A stretch of 41,816 nucleotides of DNA from Magnetococcales bacterium WMHbinv6 (GTDB lineage Bacteria; Pseudomonadota; Magnetococcia; Magnetococcales; Magnetaquicoccaceae), in contig PDZV01000036.1 of assembly GCA_002753135.1 (NCBI GenBank), positions 1 through 41,816 on the forward strand, in the 5' to 3' direction. This document shows, piece after piece, positions 25,661 to 41,816 of this stretch. Made by a program: the position numbers and the translations under genes. Positions within the stretch are counted from its first letter, which is position 1, and the number at the start of each line of letters is the position of its first letter. The notes beneath the pieces were generated by a model, which did no database searches, was not told the origin of the DNA, and was given only the letters and a program-made list of their open reading frames with translations.

Positions 25661-26464
25661 CTAACGATCCCCCTTCTCCGCCAGCCAGTTTCCGATCAGA
25701 TGGCACACCGTTGCGGCCTTTTCCAGAAAAAAAAGGTGGTCGGTCTCGGCAATCACCTGCAGTTCGGCCTGAGGGATGGATTGTGCCAACAGTTGGGCAT
25801 TGGCCACAGGAACCAGAAGATCCTGATCGGCAGAGAGCAGCAAAGTCGGACAGTGAATCTCTGCCAAGGGTTGCGGTAGCCGCAAAAAGTCGGCTACCGC
25901 GTCATATTGCAGCAACACCTGATCTCTCTCTTCCTGGTGCTGCAGGCGCTGGCGTAACACCTCAGCAAACACCGTCGGATACCGTTCCTGCAATACGGGA
26001 CAAATTTGTGGCGACAGGGCAGCCCGGATGCGCGTTTCGGCATCCAGGCGATAAATGGCCTCTATCTGTTCCCGGGTCATGAGCGGAAAAAGTGGTTGAA
26101 ATTTTTCTCCCCCGGAGCTGGTGCAGAGCATAACCAGGCTGTTTACCCGTTGAGGGGCGATATTTACCAAACGCTGAGCAATAAATCCGCCCATGCTCAG
26201 ACCAATCACGCTGCATCGGTCTATGGCCAGGTGATCCAGTAAATGGAGCGCATCCTGCGCCAGATCATCGATGGTGTAGGGGGTCGTCGCCGGAGGGGAG
26301 CGCCCCATGCCACGATTTTCTGGAAGAAGAAAGCGATAGCTGTCGTGCAACGGTTCCAGCCAGCTGCGAAACATCCAGTTGGCAGAAGCAAAGCCGGACA
26401 GGCAAAGGATTACCTCTTCTCCACGGCCAAACTCATCCCAAACCGGTAACCGGGGCCTACCCAT
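25661..26464 (-). CDS. Alpha/beta hydrolase
   Basis: A 267-residue alpha/beta hydrolase-fold enzyme. The nucleophile elbow is GLSMGG with S90. The probable acid is D213 or D215 in LLLSADQDLLVP, and the histidine is H243 in ETDHLFF, giving a complete triad. The oxyanion region reads CLSGFASANWMF. There is no signal peptide. It resembles small esterases or enol-lactonase-type hydrolases; the substrate cannot be told. Its start lies 12 bp after the stop of the AraC gene on the same strand, so the two form an operon. Confidence 0.88.
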   Translation of the reverse strand: MGRPRLPVWDEFGRGEEVILCLSGFASANWMFRSWLEPLHDSYRFLLPENRGMGRSPPATTPYTIDDLAQDALHLLDHLAIDRCSVIGLSMGGFIAQRLVNIAPQRVNSLVMLCTSSGGEKFQPLFPLMTREQIEAIYRLDAETRIRAALSPQICPVLQERYPTVFAEVLRQRLQHQEERDQVLLQYDAVADFLRLPQPLAEIHCPTLLLSADQDLLVPVANAQLLAQSIPQAELQVIAETDHLFFLEKAATVCHLIGNWLAEKGDR

Positions 26465-26476
26465 TGCCGATCTCTT

Positions 26477-27550
26477 TCATGTGCTGACTCCTTTGCGTAA
26501 CCGCGCCGGTGGTATTCCGAAGTAGCGGGTGAAGGCCAGGGTAAAATTATTGACATGCAGATAGCCAAGATCAAAAGCAATTTCTTTGATCGGGCGATTG
26601 CTGTTTTGCAGTTGGGTAAAGGCCTGTTTCATCTTCCACTCGGCAAACCATTCAAAGAGAGTTGTGCCGTGGTGTTGTCGGAACAGATCATTGAGCTTGC
26701 GTGGGGTGACCCCCAGATGCCGGGATAACTCTTCCAGGGATGGTACAGAGTGCGGAGAGTGGGTTAAACGTTGGCAGGCCTCTTCCAACAGTCGACGCTC
26801 TTTGCCATCATGGGTGCCTGTCGCGGGCAATCTGTCCCTTGCAAGCAGTTGCAGCCACTCTACCAGCAATTCCATTACTTTGCAGCGCAAAAAAAGCCGG
26901 TAATAGGGATCCTGTTTACCAGCATGAACAATTTCCAGACTGATACGTTGCAGCGCGTCGGTCAATGTGTGCTGCCACAGCAACGGCGCATCGCCCCCTT
27001 CCATAAAAGCCTCCAGCATGGCCGGCAGGGGCATGTCATCCAACAAGGTACGCAGTCCGTCACGGGTGATCAGTACATTGAGATGACGCATTCGACCGGG
27101 GTGCAAAATAATTTGTGTTGCAATTTCAGGCTCATGCACCAAACCGAGGTGACCTGCTTGCAGATGCCACGCTTCTGCTTGCGAGGGTAGAAGCATGCGA
27201 TCTTCACCGTTAAGCATGATGCGTAAACAGAGCATGGGCTCATGAATCACCGCCAGATTTAAACTTTTTTCTGCGGTGAAATGGGCAAGACCATCAATTT
27301 CCAGAACCAGGACACCATGGCAGACATTGTGAATGAAAAAATTTTCCCGTACCAGATCGGGTGTCTCTGGGTGATTATCCGGGGAGGAAGGCGGTTGGGC
27401 GAGCCATAACGGGTCTCTCTGCTGGCCAGAAGGCAGCAATCTGGATTCAGTTTCACGCTGCCTTTTGCCATGCACTGGTCGCCAAAGATGGCGTTCGTGC
27501 AGACGGCGCATTTGCTGTTCTTCGAGCGGTTTTGTCTCTTGTGCCATCAT
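26477..27550 (-). CDS. AraC-family transcriptional regulator
   Basis: A 357-residue regulator with a C-terminal double helix-turn-helix: LEELSRHLGVTPRKLNDLFR for the first and PIKEIAFDLGYLHVNNFTLAF with YFGIPPARLRKG for the second. The N-terminal 230 residues form a sensing domain with no recognised ligand motif. The layout resembles siderophore-type (PchR-like) AraC regulators. ATG 27550 is used because GGAG lies 6 nt upstream; the frame continues 49 codons further with a cysteine-rich, unlikely sequence. It probably controls its own operon with the downstream hydrolase. The 271 bp before it show no clear promoter. Confidence 0.88.
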   Translation of the reverse strand: MMAQETKPLEEQQMRRLHERHLWRPVHGKRQRETESRLLPSGQQRDPLWLAQPPSSPDNHPETPDLVRENFFIHNVCHGVLVLEIDGLAHFTAEKSLNLAVIHEPMLCLRIMLNGEDRMLLPSQAEAWHLQAGHLGLVHEPEIATQIILHPGRMRHLNVLITRDGLRTLLDDMPLPAMLEAFMEGGDAPLLWQHTLTDALQRISLEIVHAGKQDPYYRLFLRCKVMELLVEWLQLLARDRLPATGTHDGKERRLLEEACQRLTHSPHSVPSLEELSRHLGVTPRKLNDLFRQHHGTTLFEWFAEWKMKQAFTQLQNSNRPIKEIAFDLGYLHVNNFTLAFTRYFGIPPARLRKGVST

Positions 27551-27821
27551 GGTTGCTCCGCAACACTCTGCAAGCGGTGCAACCGTTGACTGGCAACAGC
27601 AAACCAAAAAAGAGATTGCCTCTGCTGAGGAAAGCACGTGGCAGGCAGGGAAGGAGAAAAGACGGGAAAGGGGAACTGTGCCATGGCCACACTCCACCGG
27701 AACGGTCGGAAAGAGAACCTACCATCCAGAGGAGTGTAGCGGGTGGCGTCAGCAATTGCTACGATATTTATGACTGATTCTTGTTCTTGGTTGCAACAGC
27801 AGGTGTTGGCAACGACAAGTA

Positions 27822-28346
27822 TCAGCTTTCACTGCTGATCATAATGTGGCATCCCATAATTTGTCGCAACGCCGACAACAACTCCGTGTGCAACCGTTCC
27901 TGTCCGGCTTGCATGCCAAAAAGGACCAATACCCCTTGAACGCTCAGGTGGCTGGCCAGTTGACGCAGTAATGGTGCAAAACGAGCAATATTTTTACTAT
28001 GCAGAGTGTCGACGCCAATCTGAACCTGGCTGGCAACCCCGGAGGTCACAATACTGACCGATTGTAAATTTTGCCGTTTAACCAAACGGTTGAGCAAATC
28101 CTGCAACCCTTCCCGTTGTCCATCCAATACCAACAATTGCACATCGGCCTGGATGGCAAAGCAAATGGTCTGAAAGTCACGAATCCGTGAATCGATCACC
28201 ATGACATGGCGGACTTCCACTGTCTCTTTCGAGGAGAGGTGGGCGGTTTGCACAGATGGCAAGAGGTATCGGCTTTCCAGCAACAAACGCAACTCCTTGG
28301 CCAGAAGGTCCATACGTCCTTCCTGTTTACGATCAGTACTTACCAT
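27822..28346 (-). CDS. Free-standing DUF4347-like protein lacking the usual His and Cys
   Basis: A 174-residue protein aligning with DUF4347, a domain normally found at the N-terminus of giant cadherin/RTX-type adhesins. The shared order is VMVIDSRIRDFQTICFAIQA, VQLLVLDGQREGLQDLLNRL, the strand LQSVSIVTSGVASQVQIG and VLVLFGMQAG. In the family, as I recall it, the third block carries a His (SHG) and the fourth a Cys (YGC); here they read TSG and FGM, so any caspase-like dyad is lost. GGGGAGG lies 6 nt before ATG 28346, next to a CCCC/GGGG mini-hairpin (28356-28367) that may cover the ribosome binding site. A non-enzymatic, perhaps binding, role is inferred. Confidence 0.65.
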   Translation of the reverse strand: MVSTDRKQEGRMDLLAKELRLLLESRYLLPSVQTAHLSSKETVEVRHVMVIDSRIRDFQTICFAIQADVQLLVLDGQREGLQDLLNRLVKRQNLQSVSIVTSGVASQVQIGVDTLHSKNIARFAPLLRQLASHLSVQGVLVLFGMQAGQERLHTELLSALRQIMGCHIMISSES

Positions 28347-28385
28347 AGACTTCCTCCCCTTGTGGGGTATCAAGACAGAAGAGAG

Positions 28386-28408
28386 CGCCATCAGTCCAGG
28401 ATTGAAAC
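28386..28408 (+). repeat. CRISPR-repeat-like fragment upstream of the cas operon
   Basis: CGCCAT (28386-28391), a 7-nt spacer and GGATTGAAAC (28399-28408) reproduce two blocks of the array repeat, which has CGCCAT, 5 nt, GGATTGAAAC. The last 8 nt equal the crRNA 5' handle. It is on the same strand as the operon, about 375 nt before its first gene. It may be a degenerate solitary repeat or a chance match. Confidence 0.35.
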
Positions 28409-28460: not shown

Positions 28461-28766
28461 CTATGGGTAATGGACCCTTTCTGCAGAAGGTGAAGATTTT
28501 GTTTTACCCAAGCGTTCGGCGATGTTAACCAGGTGATGATTGCGTTCCAGCATGCCTTGTCGTCCTGCCTTGGCCAATTGACGACTAAAATTGGTTTTAC
28601 CGTTGCGCCCAAGCGGATTGCCCCAACGATCGGGTGTCTTGCCCCCGGTTGCCTGGAAACGGTAATATTCAGGATTAGCTATTTGAACAATTACTGTCCA
28701 TCTGGCCGCAATCTGGCCGCGATTGCTAACGCAGCCTTTTTGCAATACCGTTACCTTACGTTCCAT
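28461..28766 (-). CDS. Possible 101-residue protein divergent from the cas operon
   Basis: An open frame with protein-like content, for example IANPEYYRFQATGGKTPDRW and SRQLAKAGRQGMLERNHHLV, rich in basic residues. I do not recognise the family. It fills most of the 438-bp gap between the DUF4347 gene and the cas operon. Against it: no ribosome binding site precedes ATG 28766, and its start lies only 18 bp from that of the first cas gene, leaving no room for divergent promoters. It may be a relic, or start further in. Confidence 0.35.
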   Translation of the reverse strand: MERKVTVLQKGCVSNRGQIAARWTVIVQIANPEYYRFQATGGKTPDRWGNPLGRNGKTNFSRQLAKAGRQGMLERNHHLVNIAERLGKTKSSPSAERVHYP

Positions 28767-28784
28767 AACTGTCGGAGGAAGCGT

Positions 28785-29909
28785 ATGTCATCAGGAAAAC
28801 CCTCTTCTTGTCATCTGATCGTGGTAACTGGCCTGACTCCTCAGGTGATCACCGAGGCTTTGTATGCCCTGCAAATCCAGGAGGGTTGCTCGGTACAGCG
28901 GATCTCCGTGTTGACAACTCCAGAAGGATCTGAGGCTGTGCAGAATGCCCTGATGTTGACCCGCGAATCCCCCCTGGAGCGGTTTTGTCATGATTATGGC
29001 ATCGCCCGGCGTTCCATCCTGTTTGATCAGCAGAGTGTCTACCGGATTTGGCCCAGTCGAAGTGTGGAAAGCAGTCTGGAACCGGCATCTCTGGATCATT
29101 TGATGACGTGGCTGGCCAAGTGGTGTGCTCTGGACAAACCACCCGTGGTAGCCTGCGTGGCAGGAGGGCGGAAAGACATGGCCGTTCTGTTTGCCCAAAT
29201 TTTCAGTCTGTTGGCCAGGAAGGAAGATCGTCTGGTCCATTTGTTGATTCCACCTATCTTTGAGAATTTGGCTGAATTTTTTTATCCACCGCCCCAACCG
29301 GCCACGTTGACGGTACATCGGGCGGGCGGAGTCATTTTTCTCAACAGCACAGATGCGCACGTGGAACTGATGGAGATCCCGTTGATACGTTTGCGATCCT
29401 TGGTGGATGAGGAAACCCTGACTGGGGTAATTCCCTTGACGATTGCCCAGCAACGGGTACAACATAAATTGGACGATATGGATTTGACTGTTCGCTTGGT
29501 TGTCTCGTCTCGCGCCGTTTTGCACCGGGGACATGAAGAAATTTTACCACCAAAGGAGTTCAGCTTACTGCTCTTCTTTGCGCGGGCCCGCCTGCAGGGT
29601 TGGGGGGAAGGCGGTTGGATTGCCGGAATTCGTTTGGATGATCCGTATCTGTTGTCCAACCTGGAACAGGCTTATCAGGAGGTAACTTCCGGGAATCTTT
29701 TTGGCAGCGGGGAGTCCTGGGCTACGAAAGACCGGAATGGCAAAATTGTTTTTGAGGAGTTGAAGGTGAAAGTGGTGCATGCCATTTCCAAAATCAAGAA
29801 CCGACTGGGCAGTACACATCCGGGGCGGGTGCAATCCCGCAAAGGACGTGGAGGGCAACAGTACGGTTTGATGTTGGACTCTGATCAAATTGTTATCGAA
29901 GAAGGTTGA
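28785..29909 (+). CDS. NE0113-family CARF protein (CRISPR ring nuclease Csm6-type)
   Basis: A 374-residue protein of the Cas_NE0113 family found with type III systems. The N-terminal CARF-like domain has HLIVVTGLTPQVITEALYAL at residues 10-29 and the diagnostic VAGGRKDMAVLFAQ (A126-D131). This family is expected to bind and probably cleave cyclic oligoadenylate, damping the alarm made by Cas10. A C-terminal part from about 270 looks like a helical or winged-helix extension ending in a basic stretch. No HEPN RxxxxH motif was seen. GGAGG is 6 nt before ATG 28785; upstream in-frame codons have an unlikely composition. It is the first gene of the cas operon, and its stop overlaps the cas10 start by one base. 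Confidence 0.8.
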   Translation: MSSGKPSSCHLIVVTGLTPQVITEALYALQIQEGCSVQRISVLTTPEGSEAVQNALMLTRESPLERFCHDYGIARRSILFDQQSVYRIWPSRSVESSLEPASLDHLMTWLAKWCALDKPPVVACVAGGRKDMAVLFAQIFSLLARKEDRLVHLLIPPIFENLAEFFYPPPQPATLTVHRAGGVIFLNSTDAHVELMEIPLIRLRSLVDEETLTGVIPLTIAQQRVQHKLDDMDLTVRLVVSSRAVLHRGHEEILPPKEFSLLLFFARARLQGWGEGGWIAGIRLDDPYLLSNLEQAYQEVTSGNLFGSGESWATKDRNGKIVFEELKVKVVHAISKIKNRLGSTHPGRVQSRKGRGGQQYGLMLDSDQIVIEEG

Positions 29910-32473
29910 TGGGTATGGAAAACGACTCTTTGCTGGATGCCTCCTGCCGGGTCGCCTTGGCGGCCATGCTGCATGATTTGGGAAAATTTGCCGAGCGAGC
30001 TGATTTGCCATTGCCGGACAGGGAGGGCAACGAGGCAACCTATTGTCCCTCTTTTAACGGGCGAATTTCTCACCGGCATGCGGCTTGGACGGCCCGTTCA
30101 ATCGATGAGATTGAGCAATTTTTGCCATCGATTCGGCAGGGTGCCACCCAGCCGTTCAGCAGCCAGGGCGATGCGCGCAAGGATGACTCCCTGATCAATG
30201 GTGCGGCCATGCACCACAAACCGGAGACTCCCTTGCAGCGGATTATTGCCGTGGCGGATCGCCTGGCGTCTGGTTTCGAGCGGGACACCTTTGAAAGGTA
30301 CAACCAGGCCCAGGAAGGGGTGGTAGAGAAGGGACGCACGCTCCATGCTCGCCAGATCCGTATGTGGCCGTTGCTGGAGCGGTTGCGGTTATCCGAGAAG
30401 GACAGAAAAGTGACACCGGTAGTACCAGAGCATCGTTTGCCGTTGCTGCCGATGGCGCCGCAGACACTCTTTCCGGCAAAGTTGCCGGAGGAGAGCGATG
30501 CGCAAGCGCGACAAGCCTATGCGCAGTTGTGGAACCAATTCCGGGATGGCCTGCAACGAATTTCCCACCGTGATCACTGGCCTCTATGGCTGGATCATTT
30601 CGACAGTTGGTGGCTGAGTTGCACCCATGCCATCCCTTCGGCCACGGTGACTTTTCGGGATAGACATTTTCAGTCTATTCCTCCAGATGTCTCTCTTTAT
30701 GACCATTGCAAAGCAACGGCGGCTTTGGGGGTGGCATTGTGGCGTCATCATGTCGCCTGTGGCACGCTGGATTCCTCGTTTTCCGGTTCCGGCTGGCAAG
30801 AGCCTGGGAACGAGGCAGAGTTCTTCCTGATTCAGGGCGATTTTTTGGGCATCCAGAACTTTTTGTTTTCCGGTATGACTGCCCAACGTGCAGCACGCCT
30901 GTTACGGGGCAAATCGTTCTCAGTCTCTCTGATGTGCGAACTGGCGGCTTTGGCGGTACTGGAGGCCTTTGAACTGCCCTGTACCAGTCAGGTGCTCAAT
31001 GCGGCTGGCAAGTTTCAGATTGTGGCTCCCAATCTGCCGGATGCTGAAGAGCGTCTGCAACGGGTTCGGCAATGCATGGATGAGTGGTTTCTTCAGCACA
31101 CTTTTGGGCAGTTGGGTATTGTGTTGGCCGGCTCCAGAGCCGGACGAGAGGAGTTCAGCCAGGGCCAGTTTTCCCGTTTGATGGCCCGGTTGAAACAGGA
31201 TTTGGAACAGCAAAAGCGGCAGCAATTTTCGTTATGTGAACGCACTGAAGCCGTGCTGTGGTCGGAGATTTCCTATGACACGGGTGCCTGTTCGGCATGC
31301 GAGCGGGCCCCGGCGGTGGTGGTGGAGGAAGATCGCTGCCTGTGCCGCGTGTGCCATGACCAGCAGCATATGGGACAAATGCTGATCAAGCAGGGGGAGC
31401 GTCTGGTGGTCAGTCGGGAGGTGGTCAACGCTGACACCTTGCAGTTGGACTATTTTGGTTACCGGGTGACCCTGATCAGGGAAGCGGATCTGCCGAATCG
31501 TGGTCGTCAGGCGTGGGTACGATTGTGGGATTTGTCACCACCCGGTCCAGCAGGGAATCAGCCCGACTGGCACGGAGTGGCCCAGCGGAGGATCAATACC
31601 TATGTGCCGTTGCAAGGCGAGCAGGTTGTGGAGTTCGAACAACTGGCAGCCCTTGCCGTCAGTGACGATGCCGGGCAAGCCAAAGGGGTGGCCGCTTTGG
31701 GCGTACTCAAAGGGGATGTGGATAATCTGGGTCGTTTCTTTGCGGAGTTGCCTGAGCCGACCTTTGCCCGCATGGCCACGCTCAGTCGTCAACTGCATGC
31801 CTTCTTTGCCTTGTGGCTACCCTGGTATTGCGCACACCATTTCCCTCAAACCTACACGGTTTTTGCCGGGGGAGATGACTTTTTTTTGATCGGGCCGTGG
31901 AACCGGCAGATAGATCTGGCTGGAGAGATGAGTCGGGCCTTGCGGCGCTATGCGGGCGGCAACCCGGAGTTGCATTTTTCCGCAGGGCTGACCATGACCA
32001 AGCCGGGCGTGCCGGTGACCACTTTGTCCGACATGGCGGAGGAGGCACTGTATCAGGCCAAGCAGAGGAATGGGAAGGATGCGATCACCTGTTGGGATCG
32101 TACCGTATCCTGGTCACGATTTGATCAACTGCAGGAGAGAAGTCGATCCCTGCAGGATTTGCTGGTGGAACTGCTTGAGCAGTACAAACTGCCCATCAGT
32201 ACCGCTTATTTATATGGTTTGCTACACCTGTGCGAAAAGGCTGAACAGTCGGAAACATGCCCACGAGAAGCGATTTGGCATGCCTGGTTTGTCTACCGCA
32301 CCTGGCGCATGGTGGTGGATCGACTGCATCGGGAAGCGGACAAAAAAGCGGTCAGTCAGCGGCTGGCTCAGGAGATCGGCAGCCAGATTCGGGAGTACAA
32401 AAACGATTACAAGATTGCTCTGTTCACCTGCCTTTATCAGAGAAGGCACTATCGGAAGAAGGATGAGGTATGA
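29909..32473 (+). CDS. csm1: Cas10/Csm1, large subunit of the type III-A effector
   Basis: The 854-residue signature protein of type III-A. The N-terminal HD nuclease motif is intact (LHDLGKF, H22-D23) with further histidines in ISHRHAAW and AAMHHKP. A four-cysteine zinc site lies at C461-x2-C464 and C479-x2-C482. The second palm domain carries GVLKGDVDNLGRFF and an intact cyclase motif GGDD (G654-D657). On target RNA binding it should cut single-stranded DNA through HD and make cyclic oligoadenylates through the palm. The start overlaps the preceding stop as TGATG. ATG 29915, two codons later, has better spacing from GAAGG and is equally possible. The stop overlaps csm2 by 4 nt. Confidence 0.95.
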   Translation: MGMENDSLLDASCRVALAAMLHDLGKFAERADLPLPDREGNEATYCPSFNGRISHRHAAWTARSIDEIEQFLPSIRQGATQPFSSQGDARKDDSLINGAAMHHKPETPLQRIIAVADRLASGFERDTFERYNQAQEGVVEKGRTLHARQIRMWPLLERLRLSEKDRKVTPVVPEHRLPLLPMAPQTLFPAKLPEESDAQARQAYAQLWNQFRDGLQRISHRDHWPLWLDHFDSWWLSCTHAIPSATVTFRDRHFQSIPPDVSLYDHCKATAALGVALWRHHVACGTLDSSFSGSGWQEPGNEAEFFLIQGDFLGIQNFLFSGMTAQRAARLLRGKSFSVSLMCELAALAVLEAFELPCTSQVLNAAGKFQIVAPNLPDAEERLQRVRQCMDEWFLQHTFGQLGIVLAGSRAGREEFSQGQFSRLMARLKQDLEQQKRQQFSLCERTEAVLWSEISYDTGACSACERAPAVVVEEDRCLCRVCHDQQHMGQMLIKQGERLVVSREVVNADTLQLDYFGYRVTLIREADLPNRGRQAWVRLWDLSPPGPAGNQPDWHGVAQRRINTYVPLQGEQVVEFEQLAALAVSDDAGQAKGVAALGVLKGDVDNLGRFFAELPEPTFARMATLSRQLHAFFALWLPWYCAHHFPQTYTVFAGGDDFFLIGPWNRQIDLAGEMSRALRRYAGGNPELHFSAGLTMTKPGVPVTTLSDMAEEALYQAKQRNGKDAITCWDRTVSWSRFDQLQERSRSLQDLLVELLEQYKLPISTAYLYGLLHLCEKAEQSETCPREAIWHAWFVYRTWRMVVDRLHREADKKAVSQRLAQEIGSQIREYKNDYKIALFTCLYQRRHYRKKDEV

Positions 32474-32955
32474 CACAAACAATTCAAAAAAGAACCGGTT
32501 TCAATCCATCCCCTCCCCGAGATGGTTTTGGCGGAGCAACACCGCCGCCGGCGGATAGACAGTGGTTGGATGCCGTAAAATTTTCCAAACCCTTGGACAG
32601 TGCCTTATTTGACGAAATTGCTCAGAAGGTGGCACGACGGGTGGCCATGGACGGGAGCAGGCCTAAAGCATCCAACAAACCCACTCAGATTCGCCGCTTT
32701 TATGATGAAATCTGTCTGTGGGCGGAGAAGATCGACGAAGATGAGGAAAAATTCAAGAAGTATGAGCCTCTGATCCGGATGATCAACGCCAAGGCGGCCT
32801 ATGCCTTGGGGCGTAACAAATTGGTGGATCAGGATTTTGCTGATTTGCTCCGGCATGGTTTGCGTCAGGTGGATTCTGCGGAGAAGCTGGCTGATTTCAA
32901 GCTGTTCATGGAAGCATTCATGGGTTTCTACAAACATGAACGTCCCAAGGACTGA
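32470..32955 (+). CDS. csm2: Csm2 small subunit
   Basis: The 161-residue, largely helical small subunit that lines the target-RNA groove of the Csm complex. The diagnostic segment is KPTQIRRFYDEICLWAEKI, with the conserved basic and helical continuation INAKAAYALGRNKLVDQDFA and a C-terminal FKLFMEAFMGFYKH. A proline- and glycine-rich N-terminal tail of about 30 residues is probably disordered. Its ATG overlaps the cas10 stop (ATGA), which indicates translational coupling and helps stoichiometry. Confidence 0.9.
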   Translation: MTQTIQKRTGFNPSPPRDGFGGATPPPADRQWLDAVKFSKPLDSALFDEIAQKVARRVAMDGSRPKASNKPTQIRRFYDEICLWAEKIDEDEEKFKKYEPLIRMINAKAAYALGRNKLVDQDFADLLRHGLRQVDSAEKLADFKLFMEAFMGFYKHERPKD

Positions 32956-32977
32956 CAACTGAACGAAGGATATGACG

Positions 32978-33682
32978 ATGCGTTTGATCAATATTTTGCC
33001 TATTCATGGCAGCTTGACCCTCCTTACCGGCCTGCATATCGGCACCGGCAATACCGAGATGCATATCGGCGGATCGGACAATCCGGTGATCCGTCATCCG
33101 CACAGCAACGAACCGTATATTCCCGGCAGCAGCCTGAAAGGGAAGATTCGCAGCCTGCTGGAGTGGCGGGCCGGACTGGCAGCGGTCAATGGTGGCAAGC
33201 CGATGGGATACGGCAGTCTGGCCGGGTTGCCTGCTGACCAGCAAGCAGAGGCGATACAGATTCTCAAGTTGTTCGGCGTCTCAGACCAGCTGAACGAGGA
33301 GACGGCCAAGGAGATCGGTCCGAGCCGCCTGTCGTTTCGGGACAGTTTTCTCAATCCGGCATGGACGAACAAGATCAAGGGGAAAAATCTTCAGCTGGTC
33401 GAGGTGAAGATGGAAAACACCATCGACCGGGTGAAAGGGGTGGCCGAACATCCCCGCAACACCGAGCGGGTGCCGTCAGGTGCGGAGTTTGATTTCACGC
33501 TGGCGGTCAAGGAACTGGATAAGGACGCAGGGGAAGGGTTGCTGGATCTGGTCCTGATCGGCTTGAAGCTGTTGGAGATGGACAGCCTGGGTGGTTCCGG
33601 GTCGCGGGGGTATGGACAGATCCGCTGGCAATTGGCCGACCCCGCTCTGGATACCCGCTTGCGCCAGATCAAACCGTGGTAG
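32978..33682 (+). CDS. csm3: Csm3 backbone subunit and target-RNA nuclease
   Basis: The RAMP protein that forms the repeated backbone along the crRNA and cuts target RNA every six bases. The 234-residue length is typical. Visible are GSLTLLTGLHIGTGNTEMHI, then IGGSDNPVIR with D34 in the place of the catalytic aspartate (D33 in the Streptococcus thermophilus protein). The glycine loop YIPGSSLKGKIRSLLE and a C-terminal GGSGSRGYGQIRW follow. ATG 32978 is chosen because AAGGA lies 7 nt upstream; ATG 32972 is one base from it. It follows csm2 by 22 bp. Confidence 0.95.
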   Translation: MRLINILPIHGSLTLLTGLHIGTGNTEMHIGGSDNPVIRHPHSNEPYIPGSSLKGKIRSLLEWRAGLAAVNGGKPMGYGSLAGLPADQQAEAIQILKLFGVSDQLNEETAKEIGPSRLSFRDSFLNPAWTNKIKGKNLQLVEVKMENTIDRVKGVAEHPRNTERVPSGAEFDFTLAVKELDKDAGEGLLDLVLIGLKLLEMDSLGGSGSRGYGQIRWQLADPALDTRLRQIKPW

Positions 33683-33699
33683 GCCAAGCGGGAGCAGCC

Positions 33700-34659
33700 A
33701 TGAAAAGCCTGCGAGTCACACTTCGTCCCGTCACGGCGTTCATCACGCCGCTGCATGGCGATACCCTTTTTGGACAGTTGTGTTGGGCTCTGCGCCATCG
33801 CCTTGGGGAGGCGTGGCTGGAGCAGGCCCTGAACGGCTATGGCCAGGGCCAGCCTTTTCTGGTGGTGTCGGACGCTTTCCCTGCCGGCTATTGGCCCCGT
33901 CCCGCTTTGCCCCCCCTGCCGGGGAGTGTGCATGACAAGGTGGCCAAAAAAAAGGTCTGGTTACCCCGTCAGGAGTGGCGAAAGCCGTTGCAGGCGTGGC
34001 TGTCGGACAGTTGCAACGAACAGGAGGCCTTTGGTCTGGAAAAGGAGAAGAGACCACCTTTGCGACCTCTGCCGCGCAGCCGCAACAGCATCAATCGGAT
34101 CTCCGGCACGACCGGTGAAGAGGGCTTTGCTCCCTATTCTCTGGAGCAGATTTGGTTTCCCGTGGGGAGCCGCCTGGAGGTGTGGTTGCTGCACGATGAA
34201 CGGGTAGAGACAGCGCAGGTGCGGCAGGCTCTCTGGGATGTGGGGCAGAGCGGTTTTGGCAAAAAGGCCAGCAGCGGCATGGGTTATTTCGAATTGCTGG
34301 AGGAGCCACAGGAAGAGTCTCTGCCTGCCCATCAGGGAAGCAATAGCTGGTTGAGTCTGGGATTCTGTCTGCCGCATGGGGGAGAATGGGATGCCAAACA
34401 CAGTTTTTATCAGGTGTTTACCCGATTCGGGCGGCATGGCGGTCAGGCGGCGCTCACCGGGCAGCCTTTCAAAAAACCGCTCCTTCTGACCCGGGCGGGC
34501 GGGCTGTTCAGCCCGAGGCAATTCCAGCCAAGGCAGTGGATTGGCCAGGGGATCGGGGGCGATGGCCTGCTCTCCCGTTGCATACCGGAAACCGTACAAC
34601 AAGGCTATGCCCCGGTGGTGGGGCTGCTGGTGGATTGGGAGTCTTTCAACCATGGCTGA
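33700..34659 (+). CDS. csm4: Csm4, crRNA 5'-handle-binding RAMP subunit
   Basis: A 319-residue Csm4 that links Cas10 to the Csm3 backbone and grips the crRNA 5' handle. The N-terminal RAMP strand VTLRPVTAFITPLHGDTLFG and LCWALRHRLGE are typical, as are the middle RSRNSINRISGTT and the glycine-rich GFGKKASSGMGYFELLE. GGGAG lies 6 nt before ATG 33700, and a frame start at 33676 lacks support. Its last 8 bases overlap the csm5 start. Confidence 0.9.
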   Translation: MKSLRVTLRPVTAFITPLHGDTLFGQLCWALRHRLGEAWLEQALNGYGQGQPFLVVSDAFPAGYWPRPALPPLPGSVHDKVAKKKVWLPRQEWRKPLQAWLSDSCNEQEAFGLEKEKRPPLRPLPRSRNSINRISGTTGEEGFAPYSLEQIWFPVGSRLEVWLLHDERVETAQVRQALWDVGQSGFGKKASSGMGYFELLEEPQEESLPAHQGSNSWLSLGFCLPHGGEWDAKHSFYQVFTRFGRHGGQAALTGQPFKKPLLLTRAGGLFSPRQFQPRQWIGQGIGGDGLLSRCIPETVQQGYAPVVGLLVDWESFNHG

Positions 34660-36256
34660 ACGCTTTCTGGAACATTATGATCTGCTGATTTCCACCCTTT
34701 CCCCGATCCATATAGGGTGCGGACAGGATTATGATCCGACCTGTTACATCATGGATGGGGAGATGTGTTACATCTTTGATCCCATTGATGCGCTGCAGAG
34801 CGACGAGGATCGTCAGGAACTGTTGAACATTATCGAACATATTCAGAATGGGGAGGATGTTCGGCAGGTACAGCGATTTTTCCATACTCGCCGCGACCGA
34901 TTGATGCCCGGATACCGTCGGCGGGTCTTCACCGGTCCGGGCATACAAAAATTCTACGATGAAAAAATCGGGGCGATGGGCAGCAAAAATCGTTTGCATA
35001 TTGAACGCATGACCAGCCTGATGGTGGAAGATCGCCCATCTGTGCCGGGCAGTTCATTAAAAGGGGCGATTCGAACAGCCTTGTTGGACACACTGCATGG
35101 TGGCAAGCCTCTGGCCAACCCCAGGGAGGCGGAAGAGGGAAAGTCTTGGAAAGAACTGGCCCCGTTGGGCAGCACCCTGGCCCAGGCATTGCCAAGTGAT
35201 TTTTCTCTGGATCCGATGCGGTTGCTGCGGTTTTCCGACATTACCCCCCTGCAGGATGGAGAGAGCGGCGAGGTCTGTTTTGCGGTCAACCGCAAAAAGA
35301 ATGGCGCAGTGGGACGCGGACCTTACCAGATTTTAGAGTGCTTGAGTCCGATGAGTCTGGAACGGCTGCAAGGGTCGTACAGCTTTCTGGATCCGCACCA
35401 GGCGCGTGCCAAGGCGGACAAACTGCCCGCCGAATCACTCTGGTGGGGGCGGGTCGAACTGGCCGAGCGGTGCAACCGCTTTTATCGGGAGCAGTTGCAC
35501 AGGGAGTTGGAACAGATGGCGTCGGTTTTGTCAGCCGATTGGGTAACAACCGTTGCCGCTTCGCTGGCGGGTGGTGGTTTGCGCCGGTTGCTGGAGAGCA
35601 ATCAAGCCTTTCTGCTGCGGATTGGTCGGCACAGTGGCGCGGAGGCCGTTACATTGAACGGTGCCAGAAGGATTCGCATCAAGAAAAAGGAGGGGCACCA
35701 TTGGATGGATCAGCCCACCACCATCTGGCTGGCGGCCAACCGGGATACCCGTCAGGAGTATGATCTGATGCCGTTCGGCTGGGTGCTGGTTGAGTTCAAC
35801 CATCCGGGGCGGCGTCCATTGGCGGAAACAGCGCCGGAGTTGGTGGCGTTGGCCCAGCAGTTCAGGAGTCGGGAGAGCGAGCGGCTGCACAAATCGGATG
35901 CGCAACTGCGACAGTTGCGGCAGAAACGCCAGCAGGAGCTGGAACAGACTGCTATGTTGGCCCGTCGCCGTGCGGAGGAAGAGGAGGCCAGACAGGCCCG
36001 GGAAAAGCATCTCTCTTCCATGAGTGATCAGGTTCGGGCGCTCGTTCTTTTCCAGGAAAAAATTGCATCGGCCATCCCCCAACCTGTCAGTGGCCAGTTG
36101 TGGCAGTTGGCCCAAAACTTGGTCAAGGAGTCCGCCGGATGGGCGGTGGAAGATCGGCAATCCTTGGTACGGGTGATCCGCGATGTGCTGCCCGGCAAAC
36201 TTAAGGGGGTTGCACCCAAAAAAATCCAGGAGTTGTTGGATCGGATACCCGCATGA
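34652..36256 (+). CDS. csm5: Csm5, with an unusually long coiled-coil C-terminus
   Basis: The RAMP subunit at the crRNA 3' end, involved in crRNA maturation. The N-terminus LISTLSPIHIGCGQDYDPTC and the glycine loop SVPGSSLKGAIRTALLDTL are typical of Csm5. At 534 residues it is longer than the usual 350-450. Residues about 405-458 form a highly charged predicted coiled coil (LRQLRQKRQQELEQTAMLAR onward) followed by a helical C-terminal domain ending APKKIQELLDRIPA. This extension might recruit another protein or RNase. ATG 34652 overlaps csm4 by 8 nt and has GGGAG about 10 nt upstream. Confidence 0.88.
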   Translation: MAERFLEHYDLLISTLSPIHIGCGQDYDPTCYIMDGEMCYIFDPIDALQSDEDRQELLNIIEHIQNGEDVRQVQRFFHTRRDRLMPGYRRRVFTGPGIQKFYDEKIGAMGSKNRLHIERMTSLMVEDRPSVPGSSLKGAIRTALLDTLHGGKPLANPREAEEGKSWKELAPLGSTLAQALPSDFSLDPMRLLRFSDITPLQDGESGEVCFAVNRKKNGAVGRGPYQILECLSPMSLERLQGSYSFLDPHQARAKADKLPAESLWWGRVELAERCNRFYREQLHRELEQMASVLSADWVTTVAASLAGGGLRRLLESNQAFLLRIGRHSGAEAVTLNGARRIRIKKKEGHHWMDQPTTIWLAANRDTRQEYDLMPFGWVLVEFNHPGRRPLAETAPELVALAQQFRSRESERLHKSDAQLRQLRQKRQQELEQTAMLARRRAEEEEARQAREKHLSSMSDQVRALVLFQEKIASAIPQPVSGQLWQLAQNLVKESAGWAVEDRQSLVRVIRDVLPGKLKGVAPKKIQELLDRIPA

Positions 36257-37203
36257 GTGCTCAGCAACTGTTCCCCTTCCCGGTGGCCCGATACCGGTTG
36301 GTTTTTCAGGTTGAGCGGGCCATTCGTCTGCCTGAATATGCCGGATCGTGGCTGCGAGGGATTTTCGGGGCCGCCTTGCGGCGGATCACCTGTCTGACTG
36401 GCGAGCCGCGCTGCGATGGTTGCATGCTGCTACGGCGTTGCCCCTATTCGATACTCTTTGCTGCGCCTCCCCCTCCGGGGGAACATGTGGTACAGAGTTT
36501 CGCCAACATACCCAATCCCTATGTGATTGAACCACCTCCCTGGGGGGAACGCGACTTTCCAGAAGGGGCTGAGTTGCTCTTTCATCTGGTTCTGGTGGGA
36601 CGGGCGCGACTGCAACTGGCTCTGGTAATTCTGGCCTGGCAGCAGGCTCTGGCCCGCCGGGTCGGTGCAACGGAGGGGGCCGCTCGGCTCGCCGCAGTTT
36701 GGCAGATCCAGGCTGATGGCAGTGAACTACTGGTTTTTGATTCTGAATCGGGGAATTTGGTCGAACACCATCCCTGGCTGGAACCACCGATCGAACTGCC
36801 GGAGAGTGCATCGTGCACCCTGCATCTGCTGACCCCTTTGCGCATCCAGCAGCAGGGAAAACCGTTGCGGGGACGGCAACTGACAGCCAGGGATCTGCTG
36901 ATTGCCCTGGCCAGACGCATCAGCCTGCTGGCCGAGTTTCACGCCGACTGGCATCTGGCCCTTCCCTTTACCGAACTTTCCCGCCAGGCGGAAGAGGTTA
37001 CGGTGAGCGGCCATTTGTCGTGGCGGGACTGGACCCGCTGGTCTTGCCGCCAGGAGCAGGAGATGGTGCTGGGAGGAGTGGTAGGGCATTGGAGCCTACA
37101 TGGTGATCTGGCTCCCTTTTGGGATCTTCTCTACCTGGGACAGTGGCTGCATGCGGGCAAGAATGCCACCTTCGGTCTGGGACACTACCGATTGCAGGTG
37201 TGA
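36253..37203 (+). CDS. cas6: Cas6 pre-crRNA endoribonuclease
   Basis: A 316-residue Cas6/RAMP endoribonuclease that should cut each repeat 8 nt before the spacer, giving the ATTGAAAC handle. The N-terminus YRLVFQVERAIRLPEYAGSW with LRGIFGAALRR is typical of the DUF2276-like Cas6 group. A cysteine set (CLTGEPRCDGCMLLRRCPY) may bind a metal. The C-terminal glycine-rich strand LHAGKNATFGLGHYRLQV is the usual RNA-binding end. A catalytic histidine cannot be fixed by eye. Its ATG overlaps the csm5 stop by 4 nt (ATGA). Confidence 0.9.
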   Translation: MSAQQLFPFPVARYRLVFQVERAIRLPEYAGSWLRGIFGAALRRITCLTGEPRCDGCMLLRRCPYSILFAAPPPPGEHVVQSFANIPNPYVIEPPPWGERDFPEGAELLFHLVLVGRARLQLALVILAWQQALARRVGATEGAARLAAVWQIQADGSELLVFDSESGNLVEHHPWLEPPIELPESASCTLHLLTPLRIQQQGKPLRGRQLTARDLLIALARRISLLAEFHADWHLALPFTELSRQAEEVTVSGHLSWRDWTRWSCRQEQEMVLGGVVGHWSLHGDLAPFWDLLYLGQWLHAGKNATFGLGHYRLQV

Positions 37204-37208
37204 TGGCT

Positions 37209-37520
37209 ATGACGACCTATATTGTCAGCCGACATGCCGGTGCCCTGGCATGGCTTGAGGCTCAGGGCGTTGTCGCCGATTGTCAGGTGGAACATCTGGA
37301 GCCGGAACGGATTCAGCCGGGGGATTGCGTGATTGGCATCCTGCCGATAAATCTGGCAGCCCAGGTTTGTGCCCGGGGTGGACGCTATCTGCATCTGGCC
37401 ATGCATCTACCAAGGGAGTGGCGTGGTCGCGAGTTGTCCATGGAGGAGATGATGTGCTGCCATGTCCAGTTGGCTGAATTTGACATTCAAACCCGCACAA
37501 CCAGGGAGCCCTGTGCATGA
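37209..37520 (+). CDS. csx16: Csx16-family CRISPR accessory protein
   Basis: A 103-residue protein of the Csx16 (VVA1548) family. Conserved blocks are MTTYIVSRHAGALAWLEAQG, PGDCVIGILPINLAAQVCAR and GRYLHLAMHLPREWRGRELS. These proteins occur only with type III systems and have been proposed to act on cyclic oligoadenylates as ring nucleases. Two ATGs are in frame; 37209 has AGGTG at 8 nt and matches the family N-terminus, while 37203 overlaps the cas6 stop. It overlaps the downstream CARF-HEPN gene by 4 nt, so the presumed alarm effector and its presumed off-switch are translated together. Confidence 0.85.
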   Translation: MTTYIVSRHAGALAWLEAQGVVADCQVEHLEPERIQPGDCVIGILPINLAAQVCARGGRYLHLAMHLPREWRGRELSMEEMMCCHVQLAEFDIQTRTTREPCA

Positions 37521-38704
37521 GTCATCTGTTGATCAGTTTTTTGGGAAGGGCCAGCCGGGAGGTGGGCAGTGGCTATCACCGGGCCACCTATCGTTTTGCC
37601 GATGGCCAGGAGGTGATCACCCCTTTTTTTGGTTTGGCTCTGGCGAATCAACTGCAGCCGAAACGTCTGGTATTGCTGGGCACCGCTTCCAGCATGTGGG
37701 ATGTCCTGTTTGATGAGTTGGACCCGGACAACGCCCATGAAACGATTCGATTGGAGTTGCTGGAGGCGATTGATGCGCAGCGGGTGGAGCAGCCGCTACT
37801 GGATCGTCTCTCAGAGGTGATGCGCCTGCAGACATCTCGCGACTGCACCTTGTTGCTGATCCCTTTTGGACGGGATTCACAGGAGCAGACCGCCATTTTG
37901 CGCACTCTGGCCGAGCAGGTACAGCAAGGTGATCAAGTGGACATGGATCTCACCCATGGATTTCGCCATTTGCCGATGCTGGGGCTGTTAAGTGCGCTCT
38001 ATTTGCGCACGGTTCGACAGGCTGTGGTGCGAGGGCTCTTTTATGGTGCCCTGCAGATGGCTGAAGCGGGAGCGACCCCGGTACTCCGTCTGGATGGGCT
38101 ATTGGAGATTGCCGACTGGATCAGTGCGGTGGACCGATACGATCAGTGCGGCGACTATGGAGTGTTTGCACCCCTGCTGCAGCGGCTGGAGCAGGCGTCG
38201 GAGCCGGTTGCTGACCTGCAAGAGGCAGCCTTTCATGAACGGATCAACGATGTCAGCCAAGCCCGGAACAAATTGCTCAATTTTTACAGGTGGCTTAAGG
38301 ACACGCCCTTATCGGTGACAGCGGAGTTATTCCGCGCCACCCTTCAGGAGAGAATCCACTGGTGTCGGGCCCTGGATCGGGCCACTCGGGAGGCCCATCT
38401 GGCCAGACAGTATTTCCGGCAGCGGGACTATTTGCGTTCGACCATTTTTGCTTTCGAGTCTCAGGTTACTCGGGAGATGAGCAATAAGCGGTTGGGTGAT
38501 CCTGGCAATTTCTCCGAGCGGGAAAAGGTGGCCAAGGAGATGCGCGAAAAGAACTCCGCGTTTCAATTTTTGAATCATCTGCGTAATACACTGGCGCATG
38601 GTTTGAAAGAGGCTAGTGAGCAGGTAAAAAAGGCGATGGCTTCGGAGCAGGTGTTGCGACAGAGTCTGGACCAATTATTGAAGGGCCCTGATGGTCGGGG
38701 TTGA
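37517..38704 (+). CDS. TM1812-family CARF-HEPN ribonuclease (Csx1-like)
   Basis: A 395-residue effector of the TM1812 family. The N-terminal CARF domain (LISFLGRASREVGSGYHRAT, then VDMDLTHGFRHLPMLGLLSA at residues 141-160) should bind cyclic oligoadenylate made by Cas10. The C-terminal helical HEPN domain holds RNTLAH (R356 and H361), the RxxxxH active site of a metal-independent RNase. Activation would cause nonspecific RNA cleavage and growth arrest during infection. A classical Csm6 is absent, so this is the likely effector. The start overlaps csx16 (ATGA), and cas1 follows after 5 bp. Confidence 0.88.
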   Translation: MSHLLISFLGRASREVGSGYHRATYRFADGQEVITPFFGLALANQLQPKRLVLLGTASSMWDVLFDELDPDNAHETIRLELLEAIDAQRVEQPLLDRLSEVMRLQTSRDCTLLLIPFGRDSQEQTAILRTLAEQVQQGDQVDMDLTHGFRHLPMLGLLSALYLRTVRQAVVRGLFYGALQMAEAGATPVLRLDGLLEIADWISAVDRYDQCGDYGVFAPLLQRLEQASEPVADLQEAAFHERINDVSQARNKLLNFYRWLKDTPLSVTAELFRATLQERIHWCRALDRATREAHLARQYFRQRDYLRSTIFAFESQVTREMSNKRLGDPGNFSEREKVAKEMREKNSAFQFLNHLRNTLAHGLKEASEQVKKAMASEQVLRQSLDQLLKGPDGRG

Positions 38705-38709
38705 ATTCC

Positions 38710-39759
38710 ATGCCAGTGTTGTTTGTGACCGAACAGGGGAGTGTTTTGCGTTGGGCGATGTCCAGCATGGTAGTAACCAAGGATGGCGAAGCCGGGACAG
38801 GACATGTGGCCCGTACAGTGTTGCTGTCGGTTGAACCGCACCGTCTGGAGATGGTGGGGCTGGTGGGTCGAGTACATATGACTCTGGATGCATTACATGC
38901 CTGTCTGGAACGGGGGATCGGTGTGGCATGGTTTGCCTGGAACGGTCGATTGCTGGGGCGGGTAGTGCCACCGATGGCCCGCTGTGGTGATCTGCGACTG
39001 TTGCAATACCGGGCGGCGATGGATGAGGGGATGGCCCTGTTGCTGGCATGGCAGGTGATGGAGGGAAAGTTGGCCAACGCGGCAGCGGTGTTGCGGGGTA
39101 TTCAGGCCAACTATGCGGGTTTGACCCAGGTTGCGGAGGCTATACGCGCCTTGACGGAGTTGCGCACCCGGATTGCAGAATGCCAGACGTTGCCCCAACT
39201 GTTGGGGTGGGAGGGCCATGCGGCGGCCAGTTATTTTGCGGCCTATGCGGCAGGGTTCCGGGGTGTTTTGAGTTTTTCTGGGCGTCAGAGGCGTCCGCCG
39301 CCGGATCCGGTGAATGCAGTGCTTTCGTTTGGATATGTGCTGTTGGGCAATCTGATTGGTGCGGTTCTGGAGGGACGAGGTTTCGACCCTGCGGTGGGGT
39401 TTTATCACGCGGTGCGTTCCGGCAGGGCCAGTCTGGCTCTGGATCTATTGGAGGAGTTCCGCCATCCGGTGGTGGACCGGTTTGCCCTGCGAACGATCAA
39501 TCTGAAGATCCTGCGACCAGAGATGTTCGAGCCGGATCCCGATCAGTCGGGCGGGGTGCGTTTGACCGCACCAGGTTTGAAGATCTTTTTCCGTGCCTGG
39601 GGAGAGCATCTGGATCGACCGATTGCCGATGCCGAATCATCGAGCGAGTCGGGAGGGTTGCTATTGACGCCGATGCAGTTGCTGCGGAGGCAGGTGGATC
39701 GGCTGGCGTTCAGTTTGCGGCATGGAGAGCCCTATCGGCCATTTTTGTTGCGTGGGTGA
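38710..39759 (+). CDS. cas1: Cas1 integrase
   Basis: The 349-residue integrase that, with Cas2, inserts new spacers at the leader end. The N-terminal beta domain is short (MPVLFVTEQGSVLRW). The catalytic helical domain has E168 (GWEGHAAASYFAAY), H233 (AVGFYHAVRSG) and D245/E248 (LALDLLEEFR), the complete metal site. There is no fused reverse transcriptase and no Cas4 in the locus. ATG 38710 follows GGGG by about 10 nt; a TTG at 38701 is less likely. The stop overlaps the cas2 GTG by 4 nt. Confidence 0.93.
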   Translation: MPVLFVTEQGSVLRWAMSSMVVTKDGEAGTGHVARTVLLSVEPHRLEMVGLVGRVHMTLDALHACLERGIGVAWFAWNGRLLGRVVPPMARCGDLRLLQYRAAMDEGMALLLAWQVMEGKLANAAAVLRGIQANYAGLTQVAEAIRALTELRTRIAECQTLPQLLGWEGHAAASYFAAYAAGFRGVLSFSGRQRRPPPDPVNAVLSFGYVLLGNLIGAVLEGRGFDPAVGFYHAVRSGRASLALDLLEEFRHPVVDRFALRTINLKILRPEMFEPDPDQSGGVRLTAPGLKIFFRAWGEHLDRPIADAESSSESGGLLLTPMQLLRRQVDRLAFSLRHGEPYRPFLLRG

Positions 39760-40055
39760 CTGGGGTGGGTCCGTGCATTCGATATGCAGTCTGTTATGAT
39801 GTGCTCAACAATCGTCGTCGTCGACTGCTCTCGGCCATGTTGGATGGCTACGGCAGCCGGGTCCAGAAGAGTATTTTCGAGGTGGTTCTGGACCGGAAGC
39901 TCTTTGACAAAATGGTCAGTGAAATCCATACCCACATCTCCTCGGAACAGGATCGGGTATTGATTTATCCTCTGTGTGCCAACTGTGCCGAAAAGGTGCA
40001 TCGTTTGGGGTGCAGCGATCCGGCCCCGGGGGAGGAGACGGTCTTTGTGGTTTAA
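39756..40055 (+). CDS. cas2: Cas2, with GTG start overlapping cas1
   Basis: The 99-residue Cas2 homodimer scaffold of the acquisition complex. Typical features are CIRYAVCYDVLNNRRRRLLS with the conserved D in the first strand, YGSRVQKSIFEVVL and DRVLIYPLCANCAEKVHRLG. No ATG exists in the correct region; I use GTG 39756, whose GTGA overlaps the cas1 stop exactly as other junctions in this operon do. GTG 39765 is an alternative. It is the last cas gene and is followed by the array leader. Confidence 0.88.
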   Translation: MTGVGPCIRYAVCYDVLNNRRRRLLSAMLDGYGSRVQKSIFEVVLDRKLFDKMVSEIHTHISSEQDRVLIYPLCANCAEKVHRLGCSDPAPGEETVFVV

Positions 40056-40320
40056 GTCCGGGCAGAGTTGGAGTTGTTTGGCCGATAGTGCGGTCCTGGA
40101 GCCGTCTCGGCGAGGGCAGTTGGCAGAGAGGTAGGATTGTCTATCGTAACCGGTACGGGGCCCCCAGCAGGCACCGGTTACGACAGCACCAACACAAGGA
40201 TTAGGGAGTGTTTTTTGATGACGTCGCTGCAGAAATTGGTGCCTAGATCGCTGTCCGAGGAGGTGGTTACGGAAAAGGTACAATTTATCCTTGTCAGATC
40301 AGTGTAGTATACGCTAGGCT
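40056..40320 (+). promoter_or_regulatory. CRISPR leader with an inverted repeat
   Basis: The 265 bp between cas2 and the first repeat should hold the array promoter and the integration-guiding sequence. CGTAACCGGT (40145-40154) and ACCGGTTACG (40173-40182) form a perfect 10-bp inverted repeat with an 18-nt gap; no T-run follows, so it is not a standard terminator. A TACAAT box (40279-40284) about 36 nt before the first repeat is a weak -10 candidate with no clear -35. No coding frame is supported here. Confidence 0.6.
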
Positions 40321-41714
40321 CATCGATCACATGCCCCGCCATTAAGGGGATTGAAACGTTTGTCAAAAGATTGCTGGTATTCGGCATAAGTAATCCATCG
40401 ATCACATGCCCCGCCATTAAGGGGATTGAAACCGAAAAAATCGCGGTTTATTCGCTGTCCGCTTGGCAACCATCGATCACATGCCCCGCCATTAAGGGGA
40501 TTGAAACTTGCAACAAATGCCTTCTGCTGAATAGAGATTATAGAGCCATCGATCACATGCCCCGCCATTAAGGGGATTGAAACCTAACATATGACCAACC
40601 TTCCCGCTCTGGCTATCGCGCATCGATCACATGCCCCGCCATTAAGGGGATTGAAACTCAACCTCATTCTTCCCATCGTTCCACTCGCATTTTTCATCGA
40701 TCACATGCCCCGCCATTAAGGGGATTGAAACCCAACTTTTTCGCCCAACAAAGTTACATAAGAAGTTCCGCCATCGATCACATGCCCCGCCATTAAGGGG
40801 ATTGAAACCTGCGAAAGTGTGATCCGATTACAGGTCGGCAAAGTCTTCTCATCGATCACATGCCCCGCCATTAAGGGGATTGAAACATAACGTGATCCGC
40901 TCATTTTTTAACCTCCAAAAGCCATACATCGATCACATGCCCCGCCATTAAGGGGATTGAAACCTTATCCTGGCGCTTGCTGTCCGGGTCCCAAAATACC
41001 GTCATCGATCACATGCCCCGCCATTAAGGGGATTGAAACTCATCTGGATCGGCATTGAAAAAATCCTCGCTCAAATCATTCATCGATCACATGCCCCGCC
41101 ATTAAGGGGATTGAAACCTTTGGTATTGGGTAGCTGCGGTAGCGGGGTTATACCCTTGCATCGATCACATGCCCCGCCATTAAGGGGATTGAAACTGCCA
41201 GAAAATCTTCTTCTGTCGGAATGGCTACTCGCCTTCATCGATCACATGCCCCGCCATTAAGGGGATTGAAACAATCATGATTTTTCCTTTCTGTGATCTT
41301 CCGGCAAGTAGCCATCGATCACATGCCCCGCCATTAAGGGGATTGAAACCTGGCAAGTAGCAAGCTACTTGCCCGATTTTGAGCAAACATCGATCACATG
41401 CCCCGCCATTAAGGGGATTGAAACATGAGATTGCCAGTGACCAGGGAATTCAGCGACTCCAGCCATCGAGCACATGCCCCGCCATTAAGGGGATTGAAAC
41501 CTTTCAAATTTTCCCGCGAATCAATCCAAAATTTTGCGGACATCGATCACATGCCCCGCCATTAAGGGGATTGAAACAAGATCTGCCACAGACTGAAGAC
41601 GTTTCCGCTCCTCTCCATCGATCACATGCCCCGCCATTAAGGGGATTGAAACTACTAAATAAATCCCACAGTTGTGCGGTTACACCGCTTCATCGATCAC
41701 ATGCCCCGCCATTA
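40321..41714 (+). CRISPR. Type III-A array: 18 full repeats, 18 spacers, one cut repeat
   Basis: The 37-nt repeat begins CATCGATCACATGCCCCGCC and ends AAGGGGATTGAAAC. CCCC and GGGG form a short stem just before the 8-nt handle ATTGAAAC. Full repeats start at 40321, 40396, 40471, 40547, 40621, 40695, 40772, 40850, 40927, 41003, 41081, 41159, 41236, 41313, 41388, 41464, 41541 and 41616; spacers are 37-41 nt. Repeat 16 has T to G at position 7; the others look identical. The nineteenth repeat (41691-41714) stops after 24 nt at CCATTA, where foreign sequence begins. Handle orientation and the adjacent cas2 put the leader on the left and transcription on the plus strand. Confidence 0.98.
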
Positions 41715-41816
41715 CTAATCCGTGCATTGGATAGCCGACATATGCTATCATGCTCCTCATGGACACAAACTCAACCGACGGACGCAAACTCACGCACAAA
41801 ACCCTGGAAGAAATCC
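41715..41816 (+). mobile_element. Left end of an IS630-family element inserted in a CRISPR repeat
   Basis: Sequence unrelated to the array starts immediately after the TA at repeat positions 23-24 (41713-41714), the target dinucleotide that IS630/Tc1-type elements duplicate. About 35-45 nt of end sequence (starting CTAATCCGTGCATTGG) precede a transposase start. The right end and the second TA are outside the window, so the boundary is inferred from one side. Confidence 0.7.
41759..41816 (+). CDS. IS630-family transposase, N-terminal fragment
   Basis: Only 19 codons are visible, MDTNSTDGRKLTHKTLEEI, and the frame runs off the window. The DGRKL-HKTLEEI opening is characteristic of IS630 transposases, where it leads into the N-terminal helix-turn-helix that binds the terminal repeats; the DDE catalytic part would follow. 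An in-frame ATG at 41750 adds three residues. No good ribosome binding site is seen at either start. Transcription would run away from the array, in the same direction as the cas operon. Confidence 0.7.
   Translation, partial: MDTNSTDGRKLTHKTLEEI

Follow-up and report, generated by a model that had tools for sequence, protein, structure and literature searches.

The type III-A CRISPR array at the right-hand edge of the window (the whole stretch of DNA analysed here, 41,816 nt, which is the entire contig C20) is broken in its 19th repeat by an insertion sequence of the IS630 family, and conserved gene order identifies a second contig, C16, as the putative far side of this element. On C16 the element is followed by an IS4-like remnant and not by the missing part of the repeat. 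On balance, we think it likely that two direct copies of the element recombined and deleted the segment between them, including any distal part of the array. The assembly (G000) is a draft of 80 contigs and 3.84 Mb with a completeness of 96%, and the window ends where it does because contig C20 breaks inside a multicopy element. The features on which the argument draws are listed below, with the cas locus and its genes assigned by Pfam and PADLOC.

25661-26464, minus strand: abhydrolase gene, recognized by synteny; in relatives it adjoins the ligase gene that now ends C16
28533-40055, plus strand: type III-A cas locus, composed of the following eleven genes
28533-29909, plus strand: CARF protein
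29906-32473, plus strand: cas10/csm1
32470-32955, plus strand: csm2
32972-33682, plus strand: csm3
33676-34659, plus strand: csm4
34541-36256, plus strand: csm5
36253-37203, plus strand: cas6
37119-37520, plus strand: Cas_VVA1548
37517-38704, plus strand: Csx1/Csm6-like CARF-HEPN protein
38701-39759, plus strand: cas1
about 39780-40055, plus strand: cas2
40057-40320, plus strand: leader side of the array, between cas2 and repeat 1 (from sequence)
40321-41690, plus strand: CRISPR array, 18 full repeats CATCGATCACATGCCCCGCCATTAAGGGGATTGAAAC and 18 spacers of 37-41 nt (repeat search and spacer list)
41691-41714, plus strand: truncated repeat 19, 24 of 37 nt, identical to the consensus (sequence, repeat alignment and fold)
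41715-41816, plus strand: left end of the IS630-family element, truncated at the contig edge; terminal inverted repeat CTAATCCGTGCATTGGATAGCCGACAT...
41759-41816, plus strand: start of the transposase gene, first 19 codons, MDTNSTDGRKLTHKTLEEI... (translation)

The locus belongs to type III-A, as PADLOC and Pfam find cas10/csm1 together with csm2 to csm5 beside the array. It encodes two distinct CARF proteins, a CARF5/Csx1-like protein at its front (28533-29909) and a CARF-HEPN protein next to cas1 (37517-38704). Judging from the orientation of the repeats and the position of cas1-cas2, the region at 40057-40320 is the presumptive leader. The full repeats are 37 nt each, the first starting at 40321 and the last ending at 41652, and 17 of the 18 are identical, the remaining one carrying a single T-to-G change at 41470. 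Spacer 18 (41653-41690) leads into repeat 19, which, as the earlier note had described, agrees with the others for 24 nt (41691-41714) and then breaks after ...CCATTA. The break falls at positions 23-24 of the repeat unit, its sole TA, which belongs to the loop of a CCCC/GGGG hairpin; the 5′ strand of the stem is kept, and the 3′ strand GGGG and the ATTGAAAC handle are gone. Because each repeat has only one TA, a TA-specific element entering a repeat must land there, and since repeats account for 19 of the array's 50 TAs, the use of a repeat as insertion site is unremarkable. A comparison of the array with phage genomes gave no match. Near-identical CRISPR repeats (GCCCCGCCTTTAAGGGGATTGAGAC and GCCCCGCCTTAAAGGGGATTGAAAC) are present on contigs C45 and C46 of G036 and on C149 of G020, which represent other families of the order, and were not found in the other searched genomes of the same genus.

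The sequence at 41715-41816 recurs at contig ends, on C29, C32 and C6, with the same first base in every case and directly after TA, which fixes the boundary at 41715 independently of the array. The ATG of the transposase gene lies at 41759, 45 nt past the break, and the gene reads rightwards like the array. On C32 the N-terminus of the protein can be read to 51 aa and is 92% identical over 50 aa to a 347-aa transposase of G001, a genome of the same genus. The G001 enzyme is encoded by a complete cousin of the element (L127, 1454-2557; 1,104 nt) with TA on both sides, scores 233 bits against NF033545 (transpos_IS630, cut-off 100 bits) and also matches PF13358 (DDE_3). Another cousin is present in the Magnetococcales metagenome-assembled genome HA3dbin1, in which seven contigs carry the left end, all after TA. 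In the terminal inverted repeats, the two ends of the element agree over 24 of the first 27 positions in G000 and over 25 of 34 in G001. These data confirm the family and the TA target that the earlier note had proposed from the break after TA and the transposase start within 45 nt of it. Transposase family, terminal inverted repeats and target site are all alike in the element and the IS630-family insertion sequences described by NF033545, and no difference was found; we regard it as an ordinary, probably unnamed, member from the Magnetococcales. Promoters and terminators were looked for in the array and in the G001 element, and the signals on the relevant strand did not exceed the level expected of shuffled sequence. 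At C6:1-119 two left ends stand in tandem, 31 nt of the first being followed by TA and the second; the insertion of a copy into another one, at a TA of its left inverted repeat, would produce this arrangement. A shortened relative on contig C61 of G036 (14662-14790; L128), in which the start and the end of the transposase gene are seemingly joined in a 78-aa frame, is perhaps a MITE-like derivative.

Six right ends of the element are found in the assembly, at the edges of C16, C18, C54, C58, C66 and C24, and these contigs encode a transposase C-terminus (SLQRVPEKIAGFFRHPETLYAAHINVG) that resembles the one in G001, with the stop codon inside the right inverted repeat. Five of the six abut TA; the one on C24 (100-117; L080) abuts AA, pointing to an end that is irregular or has since mutated. 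None of the six continues into AGGGGATTGAAAC, the remainder of the repeat. The unequal numbers of right ends (six) and left ends (four) in G000 imply that some junctions are absent from the assembly. Pairing of left and right ends by joined reading frames yielded no frame that clearly crosses any junction, so that the ends are paired by gene order only.

In G006 and G009 the ortholog of the abhydrolase gene is directly followed by a divergent acyl-CoA ligase gene, whose ortholog in the present genome ends contig C16, and the two genes are adjacent and divergent in G001, G003, G006, G008 and G009. When the ligase of G006 was used as query against the present genome (E <= 1e-30), the sole match was C16:126850-128316 (72% identity). 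About 420 nt past this gene, C16 carries a right end of the element and then stops, and the end is oriented such that the order C20, element, C16 restores the ancestral arrangement, with the CRISPR-Cas locus as an addition between the abhydrolase and ligase genes. The two contigs would thus be joined through a single element in repeat 19, a link made by gene order alone. In the window, an AraC-type regulator and a DUF4347 protein are encoded at 26477-28391, between the abhydrolase gene and the cas locus; they are missing from this place in the five relatives with the abhydrolase-ligase adjacency and may have arrived with the CRISPR island or separately. A homolog of the DUF4347 protein is found in G004:C434 (61% identity).

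On C16, the DNA next to the right end of the element begins with TA-AAGAAACC (in a longer reading, TA-AAGAAACCTTACC...), and over its first 293 nt this flank agrees with an IS4-like element of G006 at 288 positions (98%). The same site in G006 reads GGTGTATGGT-TA-ACGAAACC and is free of the IS630 element, from which it follows that the right end on C16 stems from a separate insertion, into IS4-like DNA. As the left end on C20 lies in repeat 19 and the right end on C16 in IS4-like DNA, two insertions are needed; a single insertion plus a deletion with a fortuitous end at a TA is a less likely alternative. The name IS4-like is tentative (no Pfam match and a weak NCBIfam match of 15 bits, E 0.009), and the identity to the G006 copy is firm as a sequence match. 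A stretch on C16, TAAAGAAAC, was considered as a degenerate repeat remainder on account of a shared GAAAC and rejected, since the flank is the 5′ region of the G006 IS4-like element. A motif of about 42 nt, 93-95% alike among C56:39-81, C16:252-294, C67:8-49, C58:24989-25030 and C74:48514-48556 and thus also present within the C16 flank, has weaker copies in related genomes and looks like a small dispersed repeat.

The far half of the repeat was also sought across the genome. AGGGGATTGAAAC has 18 exact matches in the 3.84-Mb assembly, all in the known array, and allowing one mismatch added scattered single sites only; the left half of the repeat, within one mismatch, and the full repeat are likewise confined to the known array in this genome. 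On the IS4-like side, no left end of the element follows the native flank TATGGTTA anywhere in the assembly, and the DNA that once lay between the repeat 19 site and the IS4-like site is absent from it. The junction between a right end and the repeat remainder would read GCACTGATTAGTAAGGGGATTGAAAC, and that between the IS4-like tip and a left end GTGTATGGTTACTAATCCGTGC. Neither the predicted far junction nor the repeat was found among viral contigs, a weak test, as records of the own genome may be excluded there. The expectation of the earlier note that the element would be followed by TA, AGGGGATTGAAAC and more spacers was therefore not borne out in the assembly or at C16, the sole far side within reach, with the proviso that a short segment may have escaped assembly.

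The following history would account for these findings. An IS630-family element of about 1.1 kb, pointing the same way as the array, would have entered repeat 19 in its hairpin loop. A second copy with this orientation would have entered the IS4-like element, which lay between the distal array end and the acyl-CoA ligase gene now found on C16. By homologous recombination between these two direct copies, the whole intervening segment would then have been lost, together with any distal repeats and spacers in it, and the outcome would be a single element that joins half a repeat to the IS4-like remnant. Recombination between copies is favoured because it is the simplest account of two insertions and a missing segment, and the older end of the array has probably been lost.

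The main competing explanation is that the array was split and not shortened, in which case the element would be followed by AGGGGATTGAAAC, more spacers, a trailer, a second copy in the IS4-like remnant and finally C16, with the short segment between the copies left unassembled or unbinned. After a simple insertion, the second half of the repeat must indeed still exist beyond the element; the assembly seems to lack contigs of less than about 2.7 kb (the smallest seen is 2,697 nt), and the uneven counts of left and right ends point to missing junctions. Moreover, since the right end on C16 is an independent insertion, the two-copy arrangement must once have existed, and an unassembled segment would also explain both missing flanks. 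However, neither a repeat remainder nor a further repeat unit is present in the assembly, and both copies would have had to persist at a short distance without recombining, so that we regard a split array as possible and somewhat doubtful. A truly bipartite array, whose distal spacers survive on the far side of the element and are read from the promoter of the transposase gene, appears unlikely to us; with the stop codon within the right inverted repeat and no room for a terminator, transcription of the element could run on into the distal half repeat and the spacers behind it.

Two further readings would do without a second insertion or without any insertion. Aberrant transposition of a single copy in repeat 19 could have caused an adjacent deletion that took away the distal array and whose far end happened to fall in the IS4-like remnant, and the AA next to the right end on C24 indicates that irregular ends do occur. 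The flank on C16 nevertheless starts with TA and the same site in G006 has TA, as for a true insertion, whereas a random end would give TA in about 1 of 16 cases, which makes such a deletion very unlikely. Terminal CRISPR repeats are often degenerate and the assembly is a draft, so a natural degenerate repeat or a chimeric contig also has to be weighed; the break, however, coincides to the base with the element end seen on three other contigs, always after TA, and either origin is hardly credible; the earlier note had likewise dismissed a degenerate last repeat.

If two copies recombined as proposed, neither the leader side nor any of the 18 proximal repeats was touched, and the acquisition of spacers and most crRNAs should be unaffected. 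In terms of processing by Cas6, spacer 18 would be left without a 3′ processing site. The crRNAs of type III systems are trimmed at their 3′ end, and given this trimming spacer 18 may still be usable.

That insertion sequences enter CRISPR repeats is already known, and the event is an ordinary one. In Mycobacterium tuberculosis, a repeat is split by IS6110, and recombination between two copies later removes the intervening spacers (PMC7708916). As in the case described here, the element in the M. tuberculosis complex lies in a direct repeat, in the orientation of an array that is located beside csm genes of type III-A. In contrast to the TA-targeting IS630 element, IS6110 duplicates 3 or 5 bp (PMC7708916), and whereas both repeat halves and distal spacers are seen in many M. 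tuberculosis isolates, the proximal half alone is seen here. Mobile elements also break CRISPR-Cas loci when natural insertions inactivate cas genes (PMC10359306); those insertions strike the cas genes and disable defence, whereas here the old end of the array is affected and the cas genes and newest spacers are spared. The locus thus adds, beside M. tuberculosis, a further type III-A case with an unrelated element to a general principle that is already known. In draft genomes, the visible extent of an array can reflect insertion sequences and assembly breaks, and a multicopy insertion sequence can cut off the old end of an array while sparing the leader, the adaptation genes and the recent spacers.
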